This document shows, piece after piece, positions 28,548 through 32,822 of a stretch of 35,260 nucleotides of DNA. This stretch comes from Candidatus Methanoplasma glyptotermitis. Its GTDB lineage: Archaea > Thermoplasmatota > Thermoplasmata > Methanomassiliicoccales > Methanomethylophilaceae. The position numbers were made by a program, and so were the translations under genes. Numbering within the stretch: position 1 is the stretch's first letter; each line of letters begins with the position of its first letter. Under the pieces are notes generated by a model that saw only the letters and a program-made list of their open reading frames with translations, had not been told where the DNA came from and did not search any database. The stretch is from assembly GCA_031267895.1 (NCBI GenBank), contig JAIRYF010000020.1, forward strand, positions 1-35,260. The letters are read 5' to 3'.

Positions 28548-28931
28548 ATGGGTATTGTAAGTGTTTCGCTCAACGACAAAAACCTGGAGGCATTAGATGA
28601 GATCCGCTCCGTATTCGGACTCAGCGGCAGGAGCGAAGCCATACGAACCGCCGTGAACATGGCCATGAGCGAGATACAGGGTCTCGAGAACATGACCGGG
28701 GCCGTGGAAGGTGTGCTCATAATCGTAAGGAGGGATCATGCCGATCCTTGGATGAGCCTCATTCAGGTGAAGTATGAGTCTTCCATAAAAACGCAGCTGC
28801 ACTCTCACCTCAAAGACCACAAATGTCTGGAAGTCATGATCATAGCAAGCGATGCGGGTGCCCTCTCCTCCCTGATCAAAGAAGTGCATGCCACCGGTAA
28901 GGCAGATTACGTAAGATTCGTCAGAAACTGA
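28548..28931 (+). CDS. NikR-like ribbon-helix-helix metal regulator
   Basis: 127 residues: an N-terminal ribbon-helix-helix DNA-binding domain (IVSVSLNDKNLEALDEIRS; GLSGRSEAIRTAV) and a C-terminal ACT-like metal-sensing domain. Of the four high-affinity nickel ligands of E. coli NikR (H76, H87, H89, C95) three align (H85, H87, C93 in LHSHLKDHKC). The position of H76 is V74, so the normal square-planar nickel site is incomplete. A TATA-like TTTTTAATAAC near 28498-28508 and a GGTGA ribosome binding site precede it. The zinc-type transporter starts 150 bases downstream on the same strand, so it may control that operon (inference). Confidence 0.88.
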   Translation: MGIVSVSLNDKNLEALDEIRSVFGLSGRSEAIRTAVNMAMSEIQGLENMTGAVEGVLIIVRRDHADPWMSLIQVKYESSIKTQLHSHLKDHKCLEVMIIASDAGALSSLIKEVHATGKADYVRFVRN

Positions 28932-29031: not shown

Positions 29032-29045
29032 TTAATAATTATTAA
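29032..29045. promoter_or_regulatory. Perfect 14-bp palindrome upstream of the zinc-type transporter
   Basis: TTAATAATTATTAA, centred about 43 bases before the ATG at 29082, lies in a very AT-rich stretch that must also hold the promoter. It is a plausible operator for the adjacent NikR-like or another metal regulator. AT-rich palindromes also arise by chance. Confidence 0.4.
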
Positions 29046-29081: not shown

Positions 29082-31157
29082 ATGTTGCCGAAACAGAAGA
29101 TTTTGGTCATATGTGCCGCTGCCATTCTGGCAGTAGCCGGCATAGGTGCGGCCGTAATGTACAGCGGATCCGACGACGGGGACGGCAAATTGAAGGTTGC
29201 TGCCAGTTTCTACGCTGTCGGATATTTCGCCGAACAGATAGGAGGGGACAGGGTGAGCGTGACCACGCTGATACCCGAGAACACTGAGCTTCATTCCTGG
29301 TCTCCGAAAACATCGGACATACTGGCCGCTGTTAACTCGGATGTGTTCCTGTACAACGGAGCGGGACTGGAACCATGGGTCGAGAGCGAACTTCTGTCTG
29401 CCATGAATTTGGATAAAACAACTGCAGTGGAAACCGCCTCCAAGGACAGCCTCATGGTCGGAGATGCAGAAAACACGCGTCTTTTCGTATTCGACAATGA
29501 CGGCGGGAAGACCTATTCCTACGATGTGTCCGAAGATATTGTGGTCCTGTCCGGCACGGTACCCGGATCCTTCAATGCTGCCGTGGAAGCCGTTAATTCG
29601 GAAGGGTATGTGTTCCTCTTCATGCCCACTTCCACCAGCATTACAGTTCTGAACACCGGCCTGCACGGAGACCACTTCCACAATCCGGAAACGGTTATGA
29701 AAGTGGAAGTCGGGAGTCCGGTACACTACAGTGTATCTCCTGACGGGCAGTATATTGCCTTTGCGCTCGACACTGACAACGCAGCCATAGTTATGAACGT
29801 GAACAAACCGGCGGAATACGATATTTATGAATTCCCGGGCGAGTCGCCGAACAGCCACGCTACTGTGGTGATAGACAGCGACAACATGCTCTATTTTGCA
29901 GACATGAGAGAGTCGGCGGATAAGAACCTCTGGATCGTGGATATCGAAAACAAAAGTGTAGTACGTTCGGCGATCGGCGGCGGGGACAGCCCCCATGGCG
30001 GATTCTACTCCTCCGCCATGGGCAGAGTTTATCTGAACTGCGCCGACGGAATAGCTGTAATCGGCGTGAACGGAGTGGAAAAGACAATACCATACAAGCA
30101 CGGAGACACCAGACTGGGTGTGTCGTGGGTCAGCGAAGACGGTACCAAACTTATATCTTACATAGGTGACGCTTCCTTGGGTCTTGCGTGTTCGAAGATA
30201 GTCGCATATGATCTCAGAACCGGTTCTCTCGTTGCCGACATATCCGTTTCGATACCGATAAAAGATGCGGACGGGTCTCCTTCCGCGGTGCTTACAGAAG
30301 ACATACTTGCGGTCTCGGACCCCAAGAACGGCACCGTCACTTTTGCGGACATCTCAACCGGAAAAACCAAAACTGTGACACTTAAAGCAGAGAAGCAGGC
30401 AATAGGGCTGGCAGAAGACGGAGCCACGCATATGATCTGGGCTGTGACGGAAGACGGAACCGTATACTATATCAGTCCGTTCAGCGGAGAGATCGTGAAT
30501 ACATACGAAGCGGAATCGGGTTTCGGAAATAACATCCTGATTTCCGCGGTTACCGCAGATGCCGACGAACACGACCATGAAGAACATGATCACGATGAAG
30601 AGGATCATGACGAACACGAACACGGGATTTACGATCCTCACACCTGGATATCCCCGTACTCGGCACTGAAGCAGGCCGAGGCTGTGTACAACGCATTTGT
30701 GGAGAAAGATAAGGACAATGCCTCTTATTACCTCGAGAGATGGACCGTTTTCAAAGAGAAGCTGGAAGCCCTTGACGAAGCTTACATGACCGGACTCTCC
30801 GGTGCCGACAAGGATGTCATCTTCGTGAATCACGAAGCATATGGGTACCTTGCCGACAGATACGGATTCGAACAGGAAGGTATCATCGGCATATCCGCAG
30901 ATGAGCAGCCCAGCCCCTCGGCCATATCTAATCTTGTGAACGAGATGATAGAGCACGATATCTACGTCGTCTATCTCGATCCTGTGTATTCCGATCAATA
31001 CACCATGACGCTTAAAAGCAGCGTGGAAGAAAAGACCGGAAAAACAGTCGAGATAAAAAAGATGTATTTGATGACCGGTACGGTCGACGGTCTGGACTAC
31101 CTCGGACAGATGGAATACAACCTTACGGTTCTGAAAGCCGGATTGGGTGCTGCCTGA
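29082..31157 (+). CDS. Zinc-type ABC substrate-binding protein with inserted AztD-like beta-propeller
   Basis: 691 residues, more than twice a normal ZnuA/AztC. A signal anchor (residues 5-27) is followed by the N-lobe of a cluster A-I metal-binding protein (LKVAASFYAVGYFAEQIGGD; first ligand H71 in TELHSW). Residues ~131-490 are repeated beta blades with propeller-like motifs and resemble AztD, the periplasmic zinc chaperone: LHGDHFH (194-200), PVHYS, SPHGGF and NCADGIAVI. A His/Asp/Glu-rich loop (497-514), then YDPHTW (H520), VNHEAYGYL (H584) and YLDPVYS (D633) complete the binding protein. All four expected ligands are present, so the insertion sits between the lobes without destroying the site. 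The frame starts at a GTG 29073; ATG 29082 is preferred. Operon with the next two genes. Confidence 0.88.
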   Translation: MLPKQKILVICAAAILAVAGIGAAVMYSGSDDGDGKLKVAASFYAVGYFAEQIGGDRVSVTTLIPENTELHSWSPKTSDILAAVNSDVFLYNGAGLEPWVESELLSAMNLDKTTAVETASKDSLMVGDAENTRLFVFDNDGGKTYSYDVSEDIVVLSGTVPGSFNAAVEAVNSEGYVFLFMPTSTSITVLNTGLHGDHFHNPETVMKVEVGSPVHYSVSPDGQYIAFALDTDNAAIVMNVNKPAEYDIYEFPGESPNSHATVVIDSDNMLYFADMRESADKNLWIVDIENKSVVRSAIGGGDSPHGGFYSSAMGRVYLNCADGIAVIGVNGVEKTIPYKHGDTRLGVSWVSEDGTKLISYIGDASLGLACSKIVAYDLRTGSLVADISVSIPIKDADGSPSAVLTEDILAVSDPKNGTVTFADISTGKTKTVTLKAEKQAIGLAEDGATHMIWAVTEDGTVYYISPFSGEIVNTYEAESGFGNNILISAVTADADEHDHEEHDHDEEDHDEHEHGIYDPHTWISPYSALKQAEAVYNAFVEKDKDNASYYLERWTVFKEKLEALDEAYMTGLSGADKDVIFVNHEAYGYLADRYGFEQEGIIGISADEQPSPSAISNLVNEMIEHDIYVVYLDPVYSDQYTMTLKSSVEEKTGKTVEIKKMYLMTGTVDGLDYLGQMEYNLTVLKAGLGAA

Positions 31158-31168
31158 GGAAACCGTAA

Positions 31169-31954
31169 ATGACATCTGCAGAATCGGAGACCGTACTGGA
31201 GGTCAGAGGCCTCAGGGCTGTCCGCGGAGGAGCCGTTGTGATCGAGAACGGATGTTTCAGGATCGCAAAGGGCGAATACGCAGGAATAGTCGGACCCAAC
31301 GGAGGAGGTAAAACAACCCTCCTCCAAACCATTTTAGGCTATCACCCCCGGACAGAAGGCGAGATATTTCTATTCGGTCAGCCGGCAGACCGGTTCAAAG
31401 ACTGGCAAAGAATTGCTTACACACCTCAGGATGCCATCCACTTTGACGAACAATTCCCTCTTACAGTCAGAGAACTTGTGTCCTTGGGCCGGGTAAGGAG
31501 ATCCAACCTACTCAGAAGGCTCAACGGAAAGGACTGGGAGAAGGTTGATGAGACCATGGAATTAATGGGAGTATCGGAAATATCCGAAAGACGGATAGGG
31601 CAGCTGTCGGGAGGACAGAAGCAGAGGGCCTTTGTGGCCAAGGCTCTGGCCCTTGATCCGGAACTGCTCATACTTGACGAACCCACGTCCGGTCTCGATG
31701 CCTCGGGGCAGGAATCGTTCTACAAGGTGCTCGGCAACATAAACAAAGAAAGAGGAACCACGATAGTCGTTGTATCCCATGATCTTGCCGCCGTATTCTG
31801 CAGGATGACCCAAGTGATATGTGTGAATAAATACATTCATCAGACAGGTGATCTTAATGTCGCGGAAAGACTGCTGAGAGGTGCCTACGGGAACCATTTC
31901 AGATTTGTTATGCACGGAGACTGCGAATGCTGCTGCGTTCCCGAGGATGTCTGA
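31169..31954 (+). CDS. Zinc/manganese-type ABC transporter ATP-binding protein
   Basis: 261 residues, ZnuC/AztA-like ATPase of a metal importer. Walker A GPNGGGKTT, signature LSGGQKQR, Walker B LLILDEP and the H-loop VVSHD are intact. The C-terminus is unusual: MHGDCECCCVPEDV carries four cysteines and a histidine where bacterial ZnuC proteins often have a His-rich tail, so it may bind metal. TGAGG lies 8 bases before the ATG, 11 bases after the binding-protein stop. Confidence 0.94.
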   Translation: MTSAESETVLEVRGLRAVRGGAVVIENGCFRIAKGEYAGIVGPNGGGKTTLLQTILGYHPRTEGEIFLFGQPADRFKDWQRIAYTPQDAIHFDEQFPLTVRELVSLGRVRRSNLLRRLNGKDWEKVDETMELMGVSEISERRIGQLSGGQKQRAFVAKALALDPELLILDEPTSGLDASGQESFYKVLGNINKERGTTIVVVSHDLAAVFCRMTQVICVNKYIHQTGDLNVAERLLRGAYGNHFRFVMHGDCECCCVPEDV

Positions 31955-31955
31955 G

Positions 31956-32822
31956 ATGTTCGGAGATCTGTTTACCCTGCTGGGGATGTCTTTTTTCCAG
32001 CGTGCGCTGATCGGAGGGTGCTTGGTATCCGTGATATGTGCGGCAATCGGACTTTTCGTAGTCCTGCGGAAGGAGTCCATGATCGGCGACAGCGCGGCCC
32101 ACATATCATTCGGAGGTATAGCCGTCGGCCTCCTTTTGGGCGTGCAGCCGATGATCATGGCAACCGTGTTCTCCGTGGCTGCGATTCTGGGAATGGATTT
32201 TATGAAAAAAAGGGGCATCGCTCAATCGGATTCCGCGATGGCCATATTTATGGCCATGGGATTCTCCGTGGGTCTGATAGCCATAGGTCTTTCCAACGGA
32301 TTCTCGATATCCATCATGGATTATCTGTTCGGCTCGATACTGACCATCTCCGGGAGCGATCTGGCGGTCATATCCGTGCTGGGCATCGCCGTACTGTCCG
32401 CCATATTCATTCTCCTCAAGGAGTTCATTGCGATGACATTCGACAGTATATCCTCAAAGATGAACGGAATACCTACAGAACTGCTTTCTGTACTGTTTAA
32501 CGTAATGATGGCCGTGACCGTCGTGCTTACGATAAAAGTGGTCGGCATCATATTGGTTCTGGCTCTGATGGTCGTACCGTCTCTTGCCGCGCTTCAGCTT
32601 AAGACCTCTTTCCGCAAGACTCTCCTTGCCGCTGTAATGTTCGGTGCTTTCAGCACTTTCACCGGAATTATCGTGTCCGGTATGGTAGACCTTCCCGCGG
32701 CAGGGGTCATCGTGTTCACGGACGTAGCAATACTCCTGCTGCTGGTGGCTTACAAGCACCTGGGCAAAGAACCCGGAAACGCAGTCCCGCCGATTAAAGA
32801 GACCAAGACGTTTCGGACGTGA
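31956..32822 (+). CDS. Zinc/manganese-type ABC transporter permease
   Basis: 288 residues, ABC-3 family permease (ZnuB/AztB-like) with about eight or nine transmembrane helices. The typical start (FFQRALIGGCLVSVICAAIG), RKESMIGDSAAHISFGGIAV and the EAA-like LLKEFIAMTFDS segment are visible. The ATG at 31956 has GAGG about 9 bases upstream and lies one base past the ATPase stop; an in-frame ATG at 31947 overlapping the stop is possible. Last gene of the three-gene metal import operon. Confidence 0.93.
   Translation: MFGDLFTLLGMSFFQRALIGGCLVSVICAAIGLFVVLRKESMIGDSAAHISFGGIAVGLLLGVQPMIMATVFSVAAILGMDFMKKRGIAQSDSAMAIFMAMGFSVGLIAIGLSNGFSISIMDYLFGSILTISGSDLAVISVLGIAVLSAIFILLKEFIAMTFDSISSKMNGIPTELLSVLFNVMMAVTVVLTIKVVGIILVLALMVVPSLAALQLKTSFRKTLLAAVMFGAFSTFTGIIVSGMVDLPAAGVIVFTDVAILLLLVAYKHLGKEPGNAVPPIKETKTFRT

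Follow-up and report, generated by a model that had tools for sequence, protein, structure and literature searches.

The direct passage of metal from one extracytoplasmic protein to another is poorly known. The transfer of zinc from AztD to AztC is one of the few measured cases, and the transient complex that these two proteins form is known from docking only. The locus described here raises the question of whether this hand-over, which takes place between two proteins in bacteria, may occur inside one chain in an archaeon. In the window (the whole stretch of DNA that was analysed, 35,260 nucleotides), the gene for a ZnuA-type binding protein of an ABC importer contains a large inserted domain. 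What is this domain, and what could it do for the importer?

An importer with an enlarged binding protein

The original prediction, made from the letters of the DNA, was of a metal importer with a 691-residue binding protein that keeps four metal ligands (H71, H520, H584 and D633) and holds about 360 extra residues between the first ligand and a His-rich loop. Our analysis bears out each of these points. The exported protein has an N-terminal signal anchor, MLPKQKILVICAAAILAVAGIGAAVMYSG. The Pfam ZnuA model (PF01297) matches it with an E value of 2.7e-62 in two stretches that correspond to both flanks, leaving the middle uncovered; the extra segment spans about 365 amino acids (Table 1). The two-lobed ZnuA fold of cluster A-I is present (YcdH, 2.6e-42, and AdcA, 9.8e-33, in the PDB), and the solved relatives of the binding-protein part are YcdH, AdcA, MntC and ZnuA. 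When the chain is aligned with solved ZnuA/YcdH-type proteins, all four ligands fall on ligand positions, and they are invariant in the four fusion proteins that we found. Further, the ATPase and ABC-3 permease genes lie directly 3' of the binding-protein gene, as in the operons of cluster A-I importers; the permease may in fact start further downstream than the listed GTG. The fusion is the sole ZnuA-family protein of the host genome, which is 97.85% complete. This genome also encodes McrA, and the host is thus a methanogen; judged with its relatives, it probably belongs to the Methanomassiliicoccales. A frame or assembly artefact was ruled out as the origin of the fusion, as the same architecture occurs in three genomes.

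Table 1. Features of the fusion gene and its neighbours, in window coordinates
Feature	Positions	Strand	Basis or remarks
NikR-like ribbon-helix-helix metalloregulator, upstream of the fusion	28548..28931	+	PF08753 (4e-9), PF01402
Fusion gene: ZnuA-type binding protein with inserted AztD-like propeller	29082..31157	+	691 aa, N-terminal signal anchor
Binding-protein fold, part 1, residues ~36-124, ligand H71 (29292-29294)	29187..29453	+	PF01297 first stretch, alignment
Inserted AztD-like beta-propeller, residues ~128-492	29463..30557	+	NF038015, hhalign, AF2, Foldseek
HGDHFH, residues 195-200, counterpart of AztD site 2 (donor)	29664..29681	+	Alignment; ligands from PMC6689063
H215, counterpart of AztD site 1 H124	29724..29726	+	Alignment
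H259, counterpart of AztD site 1 H167	29856..29858	+	Alignment
H305, counterpart of AztD site 1 H218	29994..29996	+	Alignment; Glu in one G058 copy
His/acid-rich loop, residues 497-514	30570..30623	+	Sequence, comparison with AztD and ZnuA/AztC
Binding-protein fold, part 2, residues 516-691, ligands H520, H584, D633	30627..31154	+	PF01297 second stretch
Cluster A-I ABC importer ATPase	31169..31954	+	Best NCBIfam match AztA, under cut-off
ABC-3 permease	31881..32822	+	Best NCBIfam match AztB, under cut-off

Comparison with the plain binding proteins of relatives locates the insertion. The propeller begins only after the section of the first lobe that comes behind H71, and it stops at the His-rich loop that precedes H520; it is therefore internal, as had been proposed, and not an end-to-end fusion. 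ZnuA/AztC proteins have their flexible loop at this insertion point, and in YcdH that loop is His-rich as well. The acidic and His-rich loop that was expected to adjoin the insert does so, following directly C-terminal of the propeller. It occupies the place of both the C-terminal His of AztD (a site-2 ligand) and the His-rich tail, which ends the chain in many AztDs. In the fusion, the AztD-type tail and the binding-protein loop are one continuous stretch. The loop of ZnuA-type binding proteins thus accepts whole accessory domains. Separately, three relatives have binding proteins of about 448 amino acids (L033:3653-4999 in genome G056, and those of G047 and G044) with an unrelated, beta-rich insert of about 120 residues in the same loop.

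The inserted domain and its relationship to AztD

Residues 131-490 had been predicted to fold as a propeller. When residues 122-500 were modelled with AF2, a confident all-beta propeller was obtained (pLDDT 89.4, pTM 0.88), from a 24-row alignment that included three further fusion inserts and 20 AztDs, the latter rows biasing the model towards the AztD fold. Among 350,542 PDB chains, the AztD structures 6n01 and 6cmk were the best Foldseek matches to this model (E 3.7e-15, TM 0.68-0.72), and AztD 6ck1 was also within the top 13; NirF and YVTN propellers, one of the latter archaeal, came after AztD. A full-chain model made from three fusion sequences, with no AztD rows and hence none of that bias, was weak (pLDDT 50.5), yet 6n01 and 6cmk again ranked first of the 350,542 chains. 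The AztD propeller thus leads the Foldseek ranking for both models.

Sequence profiles point to the same family, and the expectation that the insert would resemble AztD is upheld by AztD being its best match in both NCBIfam and the PDB. The NCBIfam AztD model (NF038015) matches the window insert without its His-rich tail (E 9.3e-8, 31.2 bits), and the two inserts of genome G058, described below, at 2.8e-7 and 5e-7. All three scores are far under the curated cut-off of 400 bits. The match to the window insert is lost once the His tail is included and is absent also in a scan of the full-length protein; hmmscan gave no AztD match for the insert of a further genome, G370. In a profile-profile comparison (hhalign) of the insert with 62 bacterial AztD reading frames, an alignment of 345 columns had a probability of 97.6%, an E value of 3.6e-12 and a score of 97.6, against a highest score of 24 in 30 column shuffles and 38.5 for the reversed control. 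Single AztDs scored up to 74, whereas PQQ-type propellers of the host's order reached 41 as a set and at most 37 singly; the prediction thus withstood the test set for it, a match to unrelated propellers with no conserved metal-binding histidines. Identity between the insert and AztD is about 15-20%. Neither phmmer with the insert nor a three-row profile matched AztD in the PDB, and the relationship is therefore seen only by profile-profile and fold comparison. An AztD consensus served purely as a probe with which real AztD sequences were retrieved from the PDB.

The candidate zinc sites are consistent with this assignment. Crystal work on AztD places site 2 on the N- and C-terminal strands and gives the ligands of sites 1 and 2 (PMC6689063). 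In the hhalign register, H101, H104, H126, H169 and H216 of Citrobacter AztD (CkAztD) correspond to H195, H198, H215, H259 and H305 of the fusion. H195 and H198 are the counterparts of the site-2 residues H99 and H102 of Paracoccus AztD (PdAztD), and the entire His triad of site 1 has aligned counterparts (Table 1). Three motifs had been said to recall AztD: LHGDHFH (residues 194-200), PVHYS (213-217) and NCADGIAV (319-326). All three lie where they had been placed, and the first two hold H195, H198 and H215, which are in register. Site 2 departs from AztD in one ligand, as hhalign leaves Asp104 of PdAztD unaligned; H200 lies two residues past H198, just as Asp104 lies two past His102, and to judge from the sequence this ligand appears to have been replaced by, or shifted to, His200. 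At the place of H408, the C-terminal site-2 ligand of PdAztD, stands the His-rich loop 497-514. Across the four fusion proteins, HGDH[FY]H, P-x-H and the second His of site 1 are invariant.

Given the NF038015 match, the 345-column profile alignment and five ligand histidines in register, we conclude that the insert is a remote homologue of AztD, not a generic propeller, and that it lies outside AztD as the NCBIfam model delimits it. Of the architecture and this relationship, taken together, we are nearly certain. These results extend AztD-type domains to the archaea.

Distribution and precedents

The predicted occurrence of the same architecture in related archaea was borne out by a search of about 480 genomes in all, from the phylum and the order, with a profile of the insert. 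The fusion is rare, occurring in three of these genomes: the host, G058 and G370. G058 belongs to a different genus/family of the same order and has two tandem fusion genes in one operon (701 and 707 aa; identity with the window protein, 48% and 54%). This operon (L031:6956-13875) encodes, in order, fusion b, a leucine-rich-repeat surface protein of 823 aa, fusion a, the ATPase and the permease. Copy a is without the His-rich loop, and it is the one fusion of the four in which the third site-1 His is gone. The fusion of G370 (694 aa, 44% identical to the window protein) comes from a different class of the phylum, although its contig is 8.8 kb long and its assembly has 6% contamination, so the class assignment is less sure. 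Its gene is divergent from a Fur-family gene, and the contig stops just after it.

A tree built from the binding-protein part joins G370 to the insert-free G254 (100/100), and the fusions require at least two changes. The propeller module has thus been gained, lost or moved more than once. Genome G028 could be a fourth with the fusion: at L032:3-356, an N-terminus 58% identical to that of the window protein is cut off by the end of the contig near residue 118, just at the point at which an insert would be expected to start. Scans of genome contigs and viral sequences with a pattern of the insert gave zero confirmed relatives, and those of plasmids gave none. The insert profile returned nothing from 200 genomes of a single bacterial phylum, which is not proof of absence; likewise, a whole-genome search of the phylum with NF038015 missed even the window protein and is no evidence of absence. 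One AztD (L042), on a contig labelled uncultured Clostridia, is identical to that of Citrobacter koseri and is probably a contamination of that assembly.

The nearest described system is AztABCD of Paracoccus denitrificans and Citrobacter koseri (6ck1, 6cmk, 6n01), which likewise consists of a cluster A-I binding protein, an ATPase and an ABC-3 permease. The fusion shares with it the AztD-fold propeller, the three histidines of site 1 and the greater part of the site-2 motif, and, with Citrobacter-type AztD, a His-rich tail after the propeller. The differences are that AztC and AztD are separate bacterial proteins, whereas here one archaeal chain has the propeller inside the acceptor loop, and that the fusion has diverged to the low identity noted above, is without the Asp104 ligand and falls under the NCBIfam cut-offs. 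AdcA of streptococci likewise links a zinc-binding protein covalently to an accessory domain that binds zinc, but that domain is a lipocalin-like ZinT placed end to end at the C-terminus, and the fusion has an AztD propeller as an internal insertion. A fusion of the AdcA type was ruled out, with zero ZinT (PF09223) matches in the 691-aa protein. The anchored-repeat ABC binding protein of TIGR03772 (a 486-aa model) is also longer than a plain binding protein; it matches the window protein weakly, in two stretches, with 74 bits of the 350 set as its cut-off.

End-to-end fusions of AztD with ZinT, joined through a His-rich linker, were observed in Devosia and Paracoccus (L072:4722-6533, L073:4218-6506 and L101:4581-6509). 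The ZinT part of the first matches PF09223 with an E value of 1.2e-82; the other two were judged by sequence. As in the fusion, AztD is here covalently joined to a zinc-handling domain through a His-rich linker, but these chains unite two accessory proteins end to end and are without a binding-protein part. The literature, in a search with most subscription-journal papers outside its reach, yielded neither an AztD fusion in archaea nor an AztD-ZnuA chain, in keeping with the original prediction that no archaeal example had been described. The fusion thus appears to be an undescribed variant, to the extent that such a search can tell, for which AdcA and the AztD-ZinT chains are precedents in the joining of zinc accessory domains.

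A proposed hand-over of zinc and alternative readings

We propose that the propeller would capture zinc outside the cell membrane and hold it at site 2 (H195/H198/H200), a site to which a His from the adjoining loop may contribute. The metal would then move along the same chain, by way of the His-rich loop, until it reached the H71/H520/H584/D633 site, and this site would deliver it to the permease. In the bacterial system, the flexible loop of AztC is required for zinc transfer (PMC6689063), and the termini of AztD are near the site of transfer (PMC7463823). With the AztD chain ends adjoining the donor site and the insertion lying in the acceptor loop, donor and acceptor would be neighbours. 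The AztD ends at site 2 are here continuous with the binding-protein loop, which argues for transfer within one molecule. The covalent link would replace the encounter of AztC and AztD by a tethered step and fix donor and acceptor at 1:1. We consider it probable that the locus encodes a cluster A-I importer with an AztD-family propeller in the flexible loop and that zinc is handed over intramolecularly. The fuller proposal, a single-chain archaeal importer with its chaperone set in the acceptor loop as an intramolecular relay, the module having been gained, lost or moved among similar binding proteins (G370 with it, G254 without), we hold to be slightly better than an even guess. A donor and acceptor that are naturally tied could be crystallised as a unit, with their partnership fixed, and transfer could be measured with single-site mutants.

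The propeller could instead store or sense the metal that it binds, or serve in docking to a host or surface partner, without any hand-over to the binding-protein half. Unrelated domains do recur at this loop, as the inserts of the three relatives illustrate; one of the tandem G058 copies retains the propeller without the His-rich loop; and site 1 of AztD passes no zinc to AztC, its function being unknown (PMC6689063). Nonetheless, no other part of the four fusions is as well conserved as the donor motif HGDHxH, and the joint falls exactly at the position of the AztC acceptor loop. We regard these alternatives as unlikely.

Less likely still is that the same architecture transports nickel, or another metal, rather than zinc. 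As a methanogen, the host needs nickel for F430, and the adjacency of a NikR-like gene to that for the ZnuA-type binding protein is conserved across 17 genomes of the order (besides the window, at L032, L036, L033, L035, L004-L009, L015, L016, L020, L022, L024 and L027). Mostly plain binding-protein genes lie beside it in the 16 other genomes, and the regulator therefore goes with the importer as a whole rather than with its propeller. Against nickel stand the three His and one acid of the binding site, the usual zinc ligand set of the ZnuA family, together with the His-rich loop and the AztD homology. Further, G370 and G254 have a Fur-family gene in place of the NikR-like gene, and the Fur family includes Zur. 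The NikR-like protein of the window keeps HxH...C but, by our alignment, seems to lack one canonical nickel ligand, the fourth, which is H76 in NikR of E. coli. This protein may regulate zinc uptake in these archaea.

An ordinary propeller of the YVTN/PQQ type, its histidines in place by chance, is a very improbable identity for the insert: a Pfam PQQ_2 match (E 6e-6) and the high Foldseek ranks of NirF and an archaeal YVTN propeller favour it, but they are outweighed by the hhalign scores, the first place of AztD in NCBIfam and the PDB, and the register of the five ligand histidines.

A perfect 14-bp palindrome, TTAATAATTATTAA, is found at 29032-29045, 36 bases ahead of the fusion start codon. 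It lies in an AT-rich stretch, where a chance origin is conceivable, and is a possible operator.
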